From contig PWOI01000066.1 of assembly GCA_003557485.1 (NCBI GenBank), forward strand, positions 1 through 8,354: a stretch of DNA of 8,354 bases. Direction: 5' to 3'. The notes under the pieces were generated by a model. It did no database searches. It was given only the letters and a program-made list of their open reading frames with translations, and was not told the origin of the DNA. Positions 1,211 through 7,549 of the stretch are shown in pieces. This DNA is from Elusimicrobiota bacterium. Its GTDB lineage: Bacteria > CG03 > SLGR01 > PWQF01. Position 1 is the stretch's first letter; each line of letters opens with the position of its first letter. The position numbers and the translations under genes are program-made.

Positions 1211-1921
1211 TCAGGCCTGATGAGAAACACTCACGAACTCAGCAGCAAGTTTCGCGTCAAGGCTGCCTTTACGGCACCTATTTTTACATATACCGCCTCG
1301 GACTCCTATAATATCCGCGCCTGTCATAGCAATTTTAGGCAAATCTTCAAGTCCGAGGCTCCCTGCAAGGCTGGCATTAAGACCTTGAGCGTGGCAGGAA
1401 GATACAAATTCCTTCAGGTAGTCAACAGAAAGGTGCTGAAGCAGGCTTCTGCCATCCTTTATAAGCGTATCTATTAGGCATGTGTCTATTCCGATTTTAC
1501 CGGCAATTTCAGGCAGCAGAAGAGGATCAAGCGTTGATTTATGCATATACTCTGCGTATACAGCAGCTACTATTTTTGTTTCACTACTTGCAATCCTGAC
1601 AGAATTTACAACCCAGAAAAGAAGATTTGCGGCCTCTTCCAGAGTACGAACACCCCTAAGGCCCACCTTAACATAATCCGGCTTGAAACAGCAGGCTCCC
1701 ATACAAGCAAGTGAAACCGTTCCGGGAAGATAAGGCACATCTCCCACTGGAATACTAATAATGGTATTCTTAGGCAGTGCTTCCTGTACCTCCTTAATAA
1801 TCTTGGGGACAGGTGCTCCAAGTGAGCCCTCTTCCGGATTTTTGATATCTATTACATCAAATCCGATGTTTGAGATCAAAGAGGCTTCTTTTTTATTAAT
1901 TATTGTTATGAGAGTTTTCAC
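1211..1921 (-). CDS. mfnB: MfnB-type (5-formylfuran-3-yl)methyl phosphate synthase (4-HFC-P synthase)
   Basis: The MfnB family (COG1891, DUF556) condenses two glyceraldehyde 3-phosphate molecules into 4-(hydroxymethyl)-2-furancarboxaldehyde phosphate, the furan core of methanofuran and bacterial methylofuran. The 236-residue length fits the family. Recognition rests on FDVIDIKNPEEGSLGA (21-36), SIPVGDVPYLPGTVSLA (56-72), DYVKVGLRGV (82-91), CLIDTLIKDGR (148-158) and ADIIGVRGGICK near the C terminus. Lys27, Lys85, Asp151 and Lys155 sit at the numbers I recall for the residues studied in the Methanocaldococcus enzyme, so the active site looks intact. The start is GTG at 1921. It is the only plausible in-frame start after the upstream stop, and no good Shine-Dalgarno precedes it. 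The gene is last in a minus-strand block, 45 nt after the radical SAM gene. No other mfn genes are in view. Confidence 0.93.
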   Translation of the reverse strand: MKTLITIINKKEASLISNIGFDVIDIKNPEEGSLGAPVPKIIKEVQEALPKNTIISIPVGDVPYLPGTVSLACMGACCFKPDYVKVGLRGVRTLEEAANLLFWVVNSVRIASSETKIVAAVYAEYMHKSTLDPLLLPEIAGKIGIDTCLIDTLIKDGRSLLQHLSVDYLKEFVSSCHAQGLNASLAGSLGLEDLPKIAMTGADIIGVRGGICKNRCRKGSLDAKLAAEFVSVSHQA

Positions 1922-1966
1922 TAATGATAATTTAACAAAACACTCATTTTATATCAAGCCGAATAA

Positions 1967-3301
1967 TCATATTCTGTTAAGTAATCTTATCAGTCTTCCG
2001 ACAGGGCAGCTTATTAGTCCTATCCTGTAACCTATCCTGCAACCTCTTATGCATAATTTGGAAAAAATGCAGTACGAACACGGCTTAACCTCCCAATTAG
2101 CGAATGGTTTAAGCCTTTCAAGAAGAACCACTATTTCATCTTCTAATATGTTACCCACTTTCAGGTCGTAATCCGCTCCGTTGCAGGGGACCACACTGCC
2201 ATCTGGTTTTATGCAGGGAAAACTCCCGGGGTAACAGCGACTTGCCTCCACCGGAGGTTTCCTGAGACTCCTCAGAATAAAAGGCTCAATGAATCCCCAG
2301 AATAAAGCAGTTTGGAACGAAGAAAAAAGAAAAATCTTTTTCTTTCTTTCGCTCATCCGGCTTGTAGGCATATACACATTAATATCGAATCTTTTTGCGC
2401 CAAGAATCTTTGCCTTACGGTATACCTTGAAGAGTTCCCAGTAATTGACCCGCGCCATTACAAAACAGATATCGGCTGTCAAGTTTGCTTCATTTGAATT
2501 CCGTAGAACATCAAGCATTTTATCGTAATGACCCCGGTGTGAAAAGATAGTGTCAAATCTGCCATCCGCATCATAGAGAGTTATATTTATTTTATCTACA
2601 CCTATCTCTTTCAGCTTGCTGATTTTTTCTCTGTCCAGGAGCCATCCGTTTGTGCTTATGTCTACAACCGCTCCTCTATTTTTTGCGTGCTGCAGAAGTT
2701 CAAATATATCTTTGCGAACAAATGGCTCTCCACCTATAAAAAGTATCTTGACGGCATCTCTTCCCTCAGTCAGCCTGTCAATGACCTCCATGATTTTTTC
2801 CGAAGAGATCTCCCCGGTTTTTTTTCGAGTCGAAGAAATATAACAATGCTTGCATCCAAGGTTGCAGTTAAGAGTAGTTTCCAAGTACACATAAAGAGGC
2901 CCGAAAGGGTGCGTAACCGCTGTTGAATTTGTAATTCCGGCCTTTACAGGAATAAAGGGAAGAAGCGTCCTTGATTTGAATTCCATAAGTTCAGGCTTTT
3001 CACTGGCATCTTCCGTATCGCGCAACCCATTGCTCGCTACCTCCGGTTTGCCGCAATGCTTTATTATAAGTCCCTTTTTTCTCAATAGCCTTATGAACCT
3101 GTGCAGTGTCTTTACGGTGACACCCGACTTTGAGGATATTTCCAGGACCCCCGTTCCGGAGCAGTTTTCCCATACAGTGTATCCTGTTCTATTAAGCTGG
3201 TAGAATTTCCAGTCTCCGTCTCTATATAAGTAAAGATAACCCCCGTCTCCGACTTTCCTTTTTTTTACTTCCGGGTTTTTTATGTATATGCCGCTGCTCA
3301 T
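1967..3301 (-). CDS. Radical SAM/SPASM protein with N-terminal PqqD-like domain
   Basis: This 444-residue protein belongs to the radical SAM superfamily, which uses a [4Fe-4S] cluster and S-adenosylmethionine for radical chemistry. Residues of about 10-80 resemble a PqqD-type winged-helix peptide-binding domain (a QLNRTGYTVWENCSG core, then helices ending RLLRKKGLI). A linker follows to about 130. The radical SAM core starts at TTLNCNLGCKHCY, with cluster cysteines C146, C150 and C153, and GGEP at 190-193 is the SAM-binding motif. C-terminal cysteines at about 356, 363, 373, 408, 411, 417, 421 and 432 form a SPASM-like auxiliary cluster domain. This architecture is typical of enzymes that modify ribosomal peptides (PqqE, sactisynthases), but some members act on small molecules. 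The ATG overlaps the upstream TGA as ATGA, so translation is probably coupled. The substrate is unknown. Confidence 0.9.
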   Translation of the reverse strand: MSSGIYIKNPEVKKRKVGDGGYLYLYRDGDWKFYQLNRTGYTVWENCSGTGVLEISSKSGVTVKTLHRFIRLLRKKGLIIKHCGKPEVASNGLRDTEDASEKPELMEFKSRTLLPFIPVKAGITNSTAVTHPFGPLYVYLETTLNCNLGCKHCYISSTRKKTGEISSEKIMEVIDRLTEGRDAVKILFIGGEPFVRKDIFELLQHAKNRGAVVDISTNGWLLDREKISKLKEIGVDKINITLYDADGRFDTIFSHRGHYDKMLDVLRNSNEANLTADICFVMARVNYWELFKVYRKAKILGAKRFDINVYMPTSRMSERKKKIFLFSSFQTALFWGFIEPFILRSLRKPPVEASRCYPGSFPCIKPDGSVVPCNGADYDLKVGNILEDEIVVLLERLKPFANWEVKPCSYCIFSKLCIRGCRIGYRIGLISCPVGRLIRLLNRI

Positions 3302-3753
3302 CTTATTATCTGAAGTCTGAACATAATATCACCCATTCCATTTTTATGCTTGCTGTATATAAGGGCATTCTTAACGGAAAACCCGTTTTCTGTAATATCC
3401 TTTCCGATGCGAGTTCCGGATATATCACCGGCGCTTACGGAAACACCCTTGTTAATCGGGATGTCTACAAAGAAAGACCTGACGGCAAGGTTATTGTCAG
3501 ATCCGATATTGACATAATTACCGAACGATTTTTCGTTCAGTGGTTGTCTGAATCCGGGTTTGTCAAAACCAAGTGTGAGGTCCACAAGATGGAAAAAATC
3601 CGAACCAAGTATATGATCCGGAAAAGTGAAGTCAGAACCTATAACCGGCACTGCTAAGATAAGCACCCCTTCGTCAATCAATAGCAACCTGAATATTTCA
3701 AGCAGTTGATTGAAGGAAGCTCCTGAAACGTGTCCAAGCACCTGAAGGCACAC
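3298..3753 (-). CDS. C-terminal half of a class I SAM-dependent methyltransferase, separated by an in-frame UAG
   Basis: This is the continuation, in the same reading frame, of the glycosyltransferase-methyltransferase gene after a single TAG at 3760-3762. It begins IVCLQVLGHVSG, which matches the beta4 region after motif III of class I methyltransferases. It continues with LLEIFRLLLIDEGVLILAVP, the usual 'leader-helix then strand' segment ending in a VP loop, and closes with GDIMFRLQII, a typical last beta strand. The SAM-binding half of the fold lies before the TAG, so this piece alone could not bind SAM. A GTG at 3751-3753 could formally start 151 residues, but no Shine-Dalgarno precedes it. 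Its TGA overlaps the radical SAM start by ATGA. I regard it as the 3' part of one original 860-codon gene that is either broken or read through. Confidence 0.75.
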   Translation of the reverse strand: MCLQVLGHVSGASFNQLLEIFRLLLIDEGVLILAVPVIGSDFTFPDHILGSDFFHLVDLTLGFDKPGFRQPLNEKSFGNYVNIGSDNNLAVRSFFVDIPINKGVSVSAGDISGTRIGKDITENGFSVKNALIYSKHKNGMGDIMFRLQIIR

Positions 3754-3759
3754 TATACA

Positions 3760-3762
3760 CTA
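3760..3762 (-). other. In-frame UAG interrupting the methyltransferase domain
   Basis: On the minus strand the frame reads RLEKTL, TAG, then CIVCLQVLGHV with no shift. Hand translation of both sides places the codon at the strand that normally carries the motif III/IV acidic residue of class I methyltransferases, where an Asp or similar residue would be expected. One base change from GAG, TAC/TAT, CAG, AAG or TGG would produce it. TAG is an ordinary stop elsewhere in this window (hisH at 410-412 and the gene ending at 7867). A nonsense mutation or a sequencing/assembly error is therefore the simplest reading, with translational readthrough or UAG decoding as alternatives. Confidence 0.9.
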
Positions 3763-5880
3763 GAGAGTTTTCTCAAGCCTATAAAGGTCATCTCTTATAT
3801 TATCGAAGTTCGCATTTATGCAAATCGAATCAAGCCCGAGCTCTGCGCATTTTTTTTCAGCTATGTGCAGACGGTCCCGGTCAGGATCGACGTTTATTAC
3901 GACCGGGGCGTTATTAGTGTAAGCTTTCTTAAATATTTCTGACGTTTCTCCGCAGCCGCATCCGTAATCCATAATTAGTCCATTGTGGGTTTCGGGAAGA
4001 AAAGAGCGCAACGCATCTAATTCTCTTGCGCGCTTCCCCTTATCCTGAAGTTCAACAAGAAAGTCAGATTTTATGCCCTTGTAGACGTACTCTGAAGAAT
4101 ACCTATTCTCAAAAAATTCTCTCCATTTAATAATATTTTCCGAAATGCTTATGTTTTGAATTTCTGAACTTCGCATTTTATCTTCAAAACCATCTTTCCA
4201 TAATCCGGATGCGATACCCAGGTATTCTGACGTCATACTGAAAACAGAAGTTTCATATACTTTTACAATAGCCCTTTTGTTAAGAATCCTGTAAGTTTCT
4301 ATATACTTTGTAATCTCACCGGACCTTAAAAGGTGGAGATCAAGCATAGTTTTCTGAAGACGTCTCTCAAGCTCTTCAGAGACCGGATTTCCGGGGAAAT
4401 CGTACAGTTTTGCCGGGTCTCCTATGTCTATATCACTTATGGGGACACAGTAAGCGCTATTATCATCCGAAAACCTTTTCAGGCCTCCTGAATCAGTTGT
4501 TAGAACCGCAGCCCCCTGGATGCTCGCTTCATCCGCCATAATATTATACCCTTCTCTGAGAGAATATGCGATAAAAGGCATTTTGTGCTTTGCGGCAAGC
4601 CTGTAAAGAGCTCTGATACTCTTTCGGGAGGGGTTGGCTACAAGGTGCACTCTCCGCCTTACACTTTCTTCAACAGATGAGAGCATAGTGCAAAGCTGCT
4701 TAAAGCAGGAAGTCCCTTCCGGATCATCATCAGCAAAATTTCCGAATATAACCAGGTCCGTATCACTCAACTCCCCTTCGATTCCTGAGAATGCGTTAAG
4801 AACCACGTTCAATCCCTTCCAGTGATCAAACCTGGCTCCGGTTACCCAGGTGCTGGTGTTGGGATTTATATCTGTCCAGCTCTCGTTGACAGGCAGTGTT
4901 TCCGGTTCAGAGTAGTATTTGCGCATAGTTTTATTAATACTCTCGATTTCCTGTATAGTTTCTTCCCAGGAAAGTTTTATATTCGCACTTGAACAGATAT
5001 CTATTCCCGATGCCATCTCCTTGAGGGTAACCGGCAATCTTTCTGTAAATTCAGGGACCGAGTAAGGCTGGCATATAATCACATCCGATACGGAAAGAAA
5101 GTCAAGATATTCCAATCTAAGGTATTCTGTAAGTGCTTCGGCCCCTTTACATCCTAACCTAATCCCGTCTGTAGCTATATGTAGTCTCCAACATAAAGGC
5201 AGCCTTCCCCGAAATGAAGATAAATACTTTATCATAGGCATAACCTGTGGATCTTCAAGAAATACGCACCCTACAGAATTATCCTGAACTATACTACGGT
5301 AAAGCCGGGCATTGAGCCGGTTGGTTTCATCAAAACACTTGAGCAGGCGGCTTCCTATGCTGCCCGGCTTTCCCTGTATTAAGTTGTGAATGAGTTTTGT
5401 GGCTTGATAAAATTCTGTGTTCAGAGGATAGATAATATGCCATTCAACCTCTATCCCGGCGTCGGAGATCAGAGTGCAGATAGATGAGAGCATTTCGGAA
5501 ACCCCCCCGCCCCGGTAAGTTGCGCTGAATACAGTAATTTTCTGTTTATTATTCGCTTTCAGGCGAGCGATGCTCTTTTCAATACTGGTTCTAATTGACT
5601 CAGCTCTTCCGTGGCCTATCTGGTCGCCTGTCAGCCTTGAGTATCTGTTTAAGCTGAGCGGGGAAACTTCCGAAGAGGGGCGATACCTCAAAGCCTCCCT
5701 TACCTCAGAAGGATAAGTATCTGCCAGTTCAAGCAGAGTCTGAAATGCAAACCTCCAATTGCTGTCTGACCTGAAGCTTTTCTTGAAAAAATTTTCTTTT
5801 ATATACAGAGCGATATTTCTGGCATCACTTCCTGATGATACCCGTGAGAGTTTCTCAACTATAATGCCACTCACGGCCAC
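3760..5880 (-). CDS. TreT-like GT4 glycosyltransferase fused to the N-terminal half of a class I methyltransferase
   Basis: The protein has 706 residues up to the UAG. Residues 1-110 are a mostly helical extension that I do not recognise. From about 115 a GT-B fold resembles trehalose glycosyltransferring synthase (TreT): TYRGGGVSEML (121-131), EWHIIY and FYQATKLIHNLIQG (about 146-170), CWRLHIA (230-236) and ARFDHWKGLNVVLNAF (349-364). The retaining GT4 E-x7-E motif is in REGYNIMADEA, with E443 and E451. A GT4 enzyme transfers a sugar from a nucleotide donor, but the acceptor is unknown here. From about 585 a class I methyltransferase begins: MDYGCGCGE (637-645) is motif I and INVDPDRD (about 662-669) is the ribose-binding acidic strand end. 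The domain is cut at residue 706 by TAG and resumes beyond it. The start is GTG at 5880, preceded by AGGAAAG seven bases upstream and 42 nt after the HisA-like stop. Calling it trehalose synthase would be over-specific. Confidence 0.85.
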   Translation of the reverse strand: MAVSGIIVEKLSRVSSGSDARNIALYIKENFFKKSFRSDSNWRFAFQTLLELADTYPSEVREALRYRPSSEVSPLSLNRYSRLTGDQIGHGRAESIRTSIEKSIARLKANNKQKITVFSATYRGGGVSEMLSSICTLISDAGIEVEWHIIYPLNTEFYQATKLIHNLIQGKPGSIGSRLLKCFDETNRLNARLYRSIVQDNSVGCVFLEDPQVMPMIKYLSSFRGRLPLCWRLHIATDGIRLGCKGAEALTEYLRLEYLDFLSVSDVIICQPYSVPEFTERLPVTLKEMASGIDICSSANIKLSWEETIQEIESINKTMRKYYSEPETLPVNESWTDINPNTSTWVTGARFDHWKGLNVVLNAFSGIEGELSDTDLVIFGNFADDDPEGTSCFKQLCTMLSSVEESVRRRVHLVANPSRKSIRALYRLAAKHKMPFIAYSLREGYNIMADEASIQGAAVLTTDSGGLKRFSDDNSAYCVPISDIDIGDPAKLYDFPGNPVSEELERRLQKTMLDLHLLRSGEITKYIETYRILNKRAIVKVYETSVFSMTSEYLGIASGLWKDGFEDKMRSSEIQNISISENIIKWREFFENRYSSEYVYKGIKSDFLVELQDKGKRARELDALRSFLPETHNGLIMDYGCGCGETSEIFKKAYTNNAPVVINVDPDRDRLHIAEKKCAELGLDSICINANFDNIRDDLYRLEKTL

Positions 5881-5922
5881 CTGCAGTCTTTCCTGTTATT
5901 CAGGCAGATAGAACGGCTTATC

Positions 5923-6660
5923 TCACCAGCTTCTGATATAGTCAATTTCTTCAGGTCCTATATTCAAATTATGCAAAGCGGTTCCAAGAAGCACCCCGGA
6001 GACGTCCATATGGAACATCTTGCGTATATCATCCATCTTGCCCAATCCTCCTCCAGTGATGATTCTGGCGCCTTTCATAGTACAGAATTCTAAAGAAGAA
6101 GTCAGTGCGTCCCCAGGCCCATTCTCAGAACCCACGCCCGAAAGGTCAAGGAAAATGAAATCAACGACTCCAATATTAGTGAAGTAATCAAAAGCAGCTG
6201 CTGGCGAAATACCAAATAGTCCGTAAGGATCAAGCAGCGCTCCATCTTTTATGTCAAGACTTACAATAACACTGTGAGGTCCGAAAACGTTAATGGTATC
6301 AGAAACAAATTTTCTGTCAGCTATTGTCTCGGTGCTTAATATTATTTTGTCGGTTATGCTGAGAATATTTTCCGGAATATCCTTGAGAGTTTTAAAACCA
6401 AGATCAAGGAAGACTTTCATCCCTGTGCGCTCTTTTATACTGCTTACTTTATCCAGGTTAGAGCCTCTGCCAACTATACTGTCAAGGTCTGCGATATAGA
6501 GACTGTTCAATTTTAATTTATGCTTGAATGTTGCCGCGATTTTCACGGGTTCAGAAGAAGGGCACAGCGGAGAATTAACCGGGAGGTACTTCTCCCGTAA
6601 TCCTCCGGAAGCGTGTACCCCTTCTCCGTTTCTGATATCTATTACTGGTATTACGTCCAT
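5923..6660 (-). CDS. HisA/HisF-related TIM-barrel protein of the COG1411 type
   Basis: This 245-residue phosphate-binding (beta/alpha)8-barrel protein is related to HisA but is probably not the histidine enzyme. The N terminus VIPVIDIRNGEGVHASGG, then REKYLPVNSPL and SSEPVKIA, fits the COG1411/hisAF-related subgroup known from methanogens and from methanopterin-linked C1 gene clusters of methylotrophs, rather than canonical HisA. The two aspartates equivalent to the HisA catalytic pair are present: Asp8 in VIDIRNG and Asp136 in VSLDIKDG. LYIADLDSIVGRGSN and the phosphate loops IITGGGLG (about 200-207) and GVLLGTALH are also kept. The family's reaction is not established to my knowledge. The ATG is preceded by no clear Shine-Dalgarno and overlaps the end of an upstream decayed frame, so it may once have been translationally coupled. 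It heads the intact minus-strand block that ends in mfnB, which supports a furan-cofactor-related role. Confidence 0.86.
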   Translation of the reverse strand: MDVIPVIDIRNGEGVHASGGLREKYLPVNSPLCPSSEPVKIAATFKHKLKLNSLYIADLDSIVGRGSNLDKVSSIKERTGMKVFLDLGFKTLKDIPENILSITDKIILSTETIADRKFVSDTINVFGPHSVIVSLDIKDGALLDPYGLFGISPAAAFDYFTNIGVVDFIFLDLSGVGSENGPGDALTSSLEFCTMKGARIITGGGLGKMDDIRKMFHMDVSGVLLGTALHNLNIGPEEIDYIRSW

Positions 6661-6791
6661 TTACTGTTCAAAAGAAATGATGCAAAATACGCCCCTTCGT
6701 AAAGCGTATAGAATTTGTGAAGGCTCGTAATTATTGCAGCATCGCTCTGGGTATTCTTTACTATCTCTCCAAAATATTCTTGTTTTTCTAA
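6651..6791 (-). pseudogene. C-terminal remnant of a gene upstream of the HisA-like gene
   Basis: An open minus-strand frame of 46 codons ends in TAA at 6651-6653 and overlaps the HisA-like ATG by 10 nt, as operon partners often do. It reads like real protein (EYFGEIVKN, SDAAIITSLHKFYTLYEG, AYFASFLLNSKWT) and uses codons similar to the genes downstream. It has no ATG or GTG start and is closed upstream by TGA at 6792-6794, with another TGA ten codons earlier. I cannot assign a family. The likely reading is the surviving 3' end of a deleted or decayed operon gene. An overlapping ATG-started frame (6661-6795, 44 residues) exists but looks less protein-like. Confidence 0.45.
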
Positions 6792-6795
6792 TCAT

Positions 6796-7122
6796 CTCTT
6801 TTTAACGGGGTAGTTCTTCAGGTTTCAATTACCTGCCAGGAAGATTGTAGCAAAGTACCGGAATTTTTTCATCTTTTTTAAATCTCAGTAAGAAAACCAT
6901 AAAAGGAAAAATGTGGGAGATAGTAACCCCTTAAAGAAGAATATATCTTTTTTAAGTAGATTGTAAATATATTGGGATACAGACCTATTTATAGGGGAAT
7001 TCCGGAGGTAAACATTATACTTGCAATAGCAGTATTACCCATAATTATAATTTTTCAGTTTAGCGGGATAAATTCAAATTTCCCCGGGAGTTATGAATCG
7101 CCGACACTTCTGATTCTTTTTA
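6796..7122. other. AT-rich intergenic region without a convincing gene
   Basis: No frame here gives a convincing protein. The minus strand holds a short ATG frame reading MKKFRYFATIFLAGN then stop, signal-peptide-like but only 15 codons, which could be another decay relic. The plus strand has an open hydrophobic frame at about 6972-7130 with only non-ATG starts (TTG at 6972, or ATT at 7014 behind a GGAGGT sequence). I see no confident minus-strand promoter for the HisA-like block, although one is expected in this stretch. Confidence 0.5.
6931..6955. repeat. AT-rich inverted repeat
   Basis: Arms TTAAAGAAGA (6931-6940) and TCTTTTTTAA (6946-6955) pair over ten positions with a single G-U and a five-base ATATA loop. 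The lack of G-C pairs makes it a poor intrinsic terminator. It could be an operator-like palindrome or a remnant of a terminator. Its position, between the minus-strand block and the plus-strand genes on the right, would suit either. Confidence 0.4.
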
Positions 7123-7131
7123 TGGTATAAT
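7123..7131 (+). promoter_or_regulatory. Extended -10 promoter (TGGTATAAT)
   Basis: TGGTATAAT at 7123-7131 is a perfect TATAAT hexamer with the upstream TGn of extended -10 promoters. The best -35-like sequence, CCGACA at 7101-7106, is weak and spaced 19 bp, which an extended -10 can tolerate. Initiation would fall near 7138 and give a leader of about 410 nt before the membrane-protein gene at 7550. Other TATAAT matches at 7198 and 7276 lack a TGn or a usable -35 box. Confidence 0.45.
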
Positions 7132-7549
7132 CTCAGCAAACCTTTTATATTAAATCACGGATGCGGGTTTATGGTGGGAATCTCCGCGAAAACGAGTTAT
7201 AATTTAATAAAAGAGGTATTTTCCTTCACGGTACCGGACCGGATGATAAGAGTAAGTCTTCCTAAACCGTTATCTTATAATGATATTTAACCTCATGTAT
7301 ATAAACGAGTCGATAACTCTCTCACGCCTTTTCCTTCTATCCTATTATACCCCTGCATCCGCTTTCCGTTACAGAGGGGTAACTGGCGGCAGCGTAAGGG
7401 GATTATCAGATAAAACCGCAGAGACCGCAAAAAGAAGTTATAGTTGCGAAAACGGGGGTAATGTCCCGGAATAAGAGGAATACCGGCGTGGAGTCCCCGG
7501 GATCTTTACGCCGCCGAAACCCCGGAAACGGGGGAAAGGAGAAGGGCCT
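7132..7549 (+). other. Long, possibly structured 5' leader of the 7550 gene
   Basis: About 400 nt lie between the likely promoter and the next convincing start. The first half is AT-rich; the second half (from about 7365) becomes GC-rich with several potential hairpins: GTTAC/GTAAC around 7368-7383, GGCGT/ACGCC around 7485-7511, and the GAAA-capped stem at 7520-7533. I compared it from memory with common riboswitch cores (cyclic-di-GMP, SAM, TPP, cobalamin, FMN, glycine), RNase P RNA and SRP RNA and found no match. A 64-codon ATG frame at 7280-7474 has no good ribosome site and an unconvincing composition, so it is not called as a gene. Confidence 0.35.
7520..7533 (+). promoter_or_regulatory. 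GAAA-tetraloop hairpin just before the ribosome binding site
   Basis: CCCCG, GAAA, CGGGG forms a perfect five-base-pair stem with a GNRA loop. It ends three bases before AGGAG (7537-7541), the ribosome binding site of the gene starting at 7550. There is no following U run, so it is not an intrinsic terminator. A stable stem so close to the ribosome site could affect translation or form part of a leader fold. The role is inferred from position only. Confidence 0.4.

Follow-up and report, generated by a model that had tools for sequence, protein, structure and literature searches.

Organization of the gene block

The window, by which we mean the whole stretch of DNA that was analysed, is one complete contig of 8354 bp (G000:C99) and comes from a soda-lake bacterium. 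Four genes were present between positions 1211 and 6660, compact and co-directional on the minus strand, as the sequence-only reading of this DNA had described them. In minus-strand reading order, they encode a HisA-like TIM barrel of the Orf17/COG1411 type (5923-6660), a protein combining a TreT-like GT4 domain with a class I SAM methyltransferase domain, a radical SAM/SPASM enzyme with a PqqD-like N-terminus (1967-3301) and, from a GTG start codon, MfnB, the putative (5-formylfuran-3-yl)methyl phosphate (4-HFC-P) synthase (1211-1921). The genes are separated successively by a 42-bp gap, a 4-bp overlap and a 45-bp gap, and this spacing suggests a single transcription unit. Convergent to mfnB on the plus strand is the native flank, a partial hisH followed by hisF (41-1187; TIGR00735, 368 bits). 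Upstream of the block lies a low-GC, mostly non-coding stretch (6661-7500), the candidate promoter region. It includes a 44-amino-acid ORF (6661-6795, minus strand) that abuts the COG1411 start and contains a CC pair and one further cysteine; this ORF had no Pfam or database match and probably arose by chance. A search for RNA families found none.

MfnB and Orf17

MfnB is known as the source of the furan ring in the coenzymes methanofuran and methylofuran. The MfnB of the window matched PF04476 with 218.6 bits (cut-off 22.4) and scored below the NCBIfam equivalog cut-off (225.6 versus 341 bits), and it aligned over its full length to M. jannaschii MJ1099 (4rc1/4u9p) with an E value of 2.7e-54. 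The residues essential to MfnB are two lysines, including Lys27, and two aspartates (PMC6604932). In the alignment to MJ1099, the equivalents of Asp25, Lys27 (the Schiff-base lysine), Asp151 and Lys155 are all kept, which bears out the claim of an intact active site and suggests that the protein is capable of 4-HFC-P synthesis.

The HisA-related protein matched TIGR00734 with 138 bits and retains the equivalents of the HisA catalytic aspartates at residues 8 and 172. In a tree whose Orf17 references were proteins from annotated fae-mch neighbourhoods, it fell inside the Orf17 clade, separated from HisA/HisF at 100/99 support. The tree rules out an ordinary HisA and confirms the COG1411 type. 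Two further genomes, G034 and G181, gave TIGR00734 matches of 95-105 bits, which turned out to be HisA.

MfnB was found in 14 of 386 diverse genomes, among which the counts for G000 and G003 rest on one shared contig. True Orf17, told apart from HisA by score, tree and neighbourhood together, was found in 11 genomes, and all 11 also possess MfnB (385 genomes, not fully independent of one another; Fisher p 1e-19), so the proposed linkage of MfnB and COG1411 held. Orf17 adjoins fae and mch in Azospirillum, Thiodictyon and Phyllobacterium. Deletion of orf17 caused the loss of methylofuran and of every detectable intermediate, with dH4MPT retained; the protein is needed early in methylofuran synthesis and has no pathway step assigned to it (PMC8141765).

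Probable host and probable foreign origin of the block

Positions 1-2452 of the window were 100% identical to a 3.4-kb contig from an independent assembly (G003:C69, SLGR01000209.1). G003, labelled Candidatus Sumerlaeota bacterium CSSed165cm_109 at NCBI, is a MAG of the same order as G000 and of another family. The hisF-mfnB junction is thus present in both assemblies, with 100% identity, which argues against a chimera at that point. G000 contains its own hisF, which resembles that of the sister genome G001 and lies in a different context. The window HisF was 64% identical to the HisF of G000 and 70% identical to those of G002 and G005:C21. The tetranucleotide correlation of the flanks was 0.94 with G003 versus 0.67 with G000, and the four-gene block showed the opposite trend, being closer to G000 than to G003. 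An MfnE-like gene was found in G003, and none was found in G000. We reject G000 as the probable host, since it lacks MfnE and has a separate hisF elsewhere. The window contig probably belongs to the species of G003 and was mis-binned in G000, and the window's own MAG, which had been assumed to be the host, is likely the wrong one, as judged from the flanks, the HisF type and the identical G003 contig.

The GC content of the block is 43%, compared with about 51% for the G003 genome. This difference suggests that the block was acquired horizontally, as an import into a genome of about 51% GC, and the low GC of the block would also explain the mis-binning. That two MAGs of different families contain one and the same contig sequence points to mis-binning in one or more public genomes. 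Family f3 (G003:C247, G005:C48, G007:C112) carries a second, diverged HisF-like gene, which is 50-53% identical to the window HisF in G007 and G005 and in G005 lies away from hisH.

MfnB in genomes lacking C1 markers

Mch and MfnF (DUF447) occurred in an identical set of 8 of the 14 MfnB genomes, and both were absent from the other six (G000, G002, G003, G078, G203 and G223). Neither was found in G000-G007, a set that includes both MAGs carrying the window sequence. The G003 MAG is 88% complete, and a missing Mch or MfnF there could reflect gaps. G078, which is 100% complete, contains MfnB, an adjoining MfnE-like gene and Orf17 (mfnB-mfnE and orf17 at L009 9407-10841 and L094 9074-9787) and lacks Mch and MfnF. 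It is the firmer case of MfnB without Mch or MfnF.

These results bear on the alternative explanation that the block contributes to the usual methylofuran pathway of C1 metabolism, the absent genes having fallen into assembly gaps. In its favour, methylofuran synthesis uses MfnB, Orf17 and MfnE alike (PMC8141765), and the incompleteness of the G003 MAG would allow for such gaps. However, Mch and MfnF were missing throughout G000-G007 and from the complete G078 genome with its MfnB, MfnE-like protein and Orf17, and the radical SAM enzyme and the glycosyltransferase lie outside the methylofuran pathway. We therefore consider ordinary methylofuran synthesis very unlikely. With the block in a genome without detected Mch or MfnF, the separate product that the sequence-only reading had envisaged gains support: the product is likely not methylofuran, a conclusion that we rate above the figure given below for the full account.

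The MfnE-like proteins scored below the MfnE equivalog cut-off; for the kinase of G003, the best model was NF040622 (MfnE), with 124 bits against a cut-off of 300. Its gene lies on contig C204, not on the window contig, and is followed by a UbiA-like gene of 42% GC, a fragment of 135 amino acids at the contig end with weak UbiA scores. In G203, mfnE-mfnB adjoins a UbiA-like gene homologous to that of G003 (34% identity, E 3e-14). G002 contains a B12-radical SAM gene and a clear UbiA with the NDxxDxxxD motif beside mfnB, the latter not similar to the UbiA-like proteins of G003 and G203. UbiA-type genes accompanying MfnB-MfnE thus recur in two further genomes lacking Mch and MfnF (G203 and G002). 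These gene neighbours led us to propose that a UbiA-type transferase may act on furanylmethyl diphosphate in MfnF's stead.

Several further loci were observed. The G203 locus (C48; L102 1953-12372), in a genome without Mch, groups mfnB-mfnE with three radical SAM genes, the UbiA-like gene and a pair of PaaK/CapK-like ligases and looks like a furan natural-product cluster; the phylum of G203 was represented by two genomes only in the phylum search. An MfnE match in G223 turned out to be UMP kinase. On Streptomyces plasmids (L146 13935-18197, L147 11935-16196, L148 11914-16371), a conserved run of mfnB, aldehyde dehydrogenase, alcohol dehydrogenase and methyltransferase genes has no H4MPT genes nearby and is apparently another use of MfnB outside C1 metabolism.

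The GT4-methyltransferase gene is interrupted by a TAG codon

The GT4 domain matched PF21269 (TreT N-domain) with 86.5 bits and also PF00534, contains the EX7E motif at residue 443 and was matched by TreT structures at E 6e-22. The methyltransferase tail matched Methyltransf_25 (24.4 bits), and domain searches gave no assignment for the N-terminal ~110 residues. The ORF (3760-5880) encodes GT4 and the first half of the methyltransferase domain (3763-5880) and closes with an in-frame TAG (3762-3760) inside that domain. Past the TAG, the same frame is open to 3298 (3298-3759) and ends in a stop codon that overlaps the radical SAM start codon, ATG; this stretch gave a coding score of 0.133 in the methyltransferase frame and negative scores in the other five. 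The described GT4-methyltransferase fusion therefore stood as to its two domains but not as a single open frame. In G003, 9 of 70 long ORFs terminate with TAG as a normal stop, which speaks against recoding. The TAG could have arisen by nonsense mutation or from faulty assembly; the second contig does not discriminate between the two, because the overlap with SLGR01000209.1 stops at window position 2452.

The interruption weakens the prediction of a methylated product and speaks against our main account, since it suggests decay or damage. It could mean that the islet is decaying and the cluster no longer makes its product, with a normal stop codon of G003 placed inside the methyltransferase domain. 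On the other side, the other three frames and the sequence past the TAG are intact and coding-like, and a TAG that is indistinguishable from an assembly error, the second contig ending before it, is an uncertain sign of decay. A decaying islet appears quite unlikely to us.

The radical SAM/SPASM enzyme

The radical SAM enzyme matched PF04055 with 88.2 bits and has the core motif CxxxCxxC (residues 146-153) together with SPASM cysteines spaced as C-x2-C-x5-C-x3-C (residues 408-421). Its PqqD-like N-terminal stretch scored 21.7 bits, just below the cut-off of 23.4. Of the domains previously assigned to this enzyme, radical SAM and SPASM were thus found with their motifs, and PqqD remained sub-threshold. 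The best equivalog model was NirJ1, with 110 of the 650 bits needed. The top matches spanned chiefly the core at 26-37% identity, and alignment-free structure prediction (mean pLDDT 44) was too poor to use. No RiPP precursor peptide gene was recognised near the block, where the sole small ORF is the matchless one of 44 amino acids. Beyond the PqqD-like domain, nothing was found in favour of attachment of the product to a peptide, and that suggestion is unsupported.

The four-gene arrangement occurs once

Among 386 genomes, the four-gene arrangement occurred only once, not counting the overlapping contig, which presumably derives from the same species. The conserved co-occurrence of the four genes that had been anticipated was not borne out, as no second genome contained them. 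Restriction to one genome thus applies to the four-gene arrangement but not to the use of MfnB without C1 genes. No full-length orthologue of the radical SAM enzyme was found in the 386 genomes. The GT4-methyltransferase had no orthologue in the genomes searched, where matches were confined to TreT-like GT domains at ~33% identity, and no relatives in viral contigs. Beside the other mfnB genes, no orthologue of either protein was present. In the literature collection searched, no publications joined MfnB with radical SAM enzymes, or UbiA with methanofuran.

It is gene order that points to joint action of the radical SAM enzyme and the GT4-methyltransferase with MfnB. Alternatively, MfnB and Orf17 could make a furan for a non-C1 product while the other two genes, sharing the islet, serve a separate pathway, such as one that modifies peptides or cell-surface glycans. 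The orphan and diverged nature of both proteins and their absence beside mfnB elsewhere are consistent with such a split, but the genes form a compact, partly overlapping run on one strand with mfnB and orf17 at its two ends, and radical SAM genes of other types are also present in the non-C1 mfnB loci of G203 and G002. We consider two separate pathways possible, if somewhat doubtful.

Proposed pathway

Our main account, to which we assign a probability of roughly 45%, is that the block was gained by horizontal transfer as an islet beside hisHF, in a bacterium lacking the methanopterin C1 pathway, and that the furan phosphate made by MfnB and Orf17 would be directed to a non-methylofuran product tailored by GT4 and the radical SAM enzyme. 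The individual reactions, their union in one pathway and the class of product are all predictions. MfnB would convert two molecules of glyceraldehyde-3-phosphate to the furan phosphate 4-HFC-P, and the Orf17-like protein would aid the same early step as in methylofuran synthesis. The MfnE-like kinase, encoded elsewhere in the genome, would then form furanylmethyl diphosphate. Without MfnF, another transferase would couple furanylmethyl diphosphate to an acceptor, and the UbiA-like gene beside mfnE is the candidate. GT4 would glycosylate the product, which is probably a glycosylated furan, and the radical SAM/SPASM enzyme would modify it. A methylation step is doubtful because the methyltransferase domain is interrupted.

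A broader proposal is that there exists a bacterial class of non-C1 furan compounds, in which the diphosphate produced by MfnB, Orf17 and MfnE is passed to a UbiA-type membrane transferase in place of MfnF, the islet making a glycosylated, radical-SAM-modified member. We regard this as speculative and unlikely. The occurrence of MfnB and an MfnE-like kinase, often with Orf17, in the absence of MfnF and Mch would imply an unreported furan metabolite. The presence of Orf17 with MfnB in genomes lacking MfnF suggests that Orf17 helps to form or process the furan moiety before coupling.

Comparison with known systems

The methylofuran genes of methylotrophs include orf22 (MfnB), orf21 (MfnE), orf9 (MfnF) and orf17 (PMC8141765). 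The window genome has MfnB and Orf17 in common with this pathway and, on another contig, encodes a kinase that resembles MfnE but scores under the equivalog cut-off. The genome differs from the pathway in the lack of detected MfnF (DUF447) and Mch, in the additional radical SAM/SPASM and GT4-methyltransferase genes and in the UbiA-like gene beside mfnE. Compared with methanofuran biosynthesis in methanogens (MfnA-F), the window MfnB keeps the catalytic residues of MJ1099, whereas MfnF was not found and the gene partners are different; this comparison covers MfnB, MfnE and MfnF. Radical SAM/SPASM maturases with a PqqD/RRE domain (PqqE, SkfB, mycofactocin MftC, NirJ/AhbD) have the core and SPASM cysteines in common with the window enzyme, whose PqqD-like N-terminus resembles theirs at a sub-threshold score and which differs in scoring far under all equivalog cut-offs and in having no recognised precursor peptide. 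The Streptomyces mfnB run (NZ_CP108274, NZ_CP027299, NZ_CP108584) lacks Orf17, radical SAM and GT genes, and its methyltransferase shows no similarity to that of the window. Like the islet, it encodes an MfnB (41-42% identical to that of the window) outside an H4MPT cluster, together with tailoring enzymes that include a methyltransferase.
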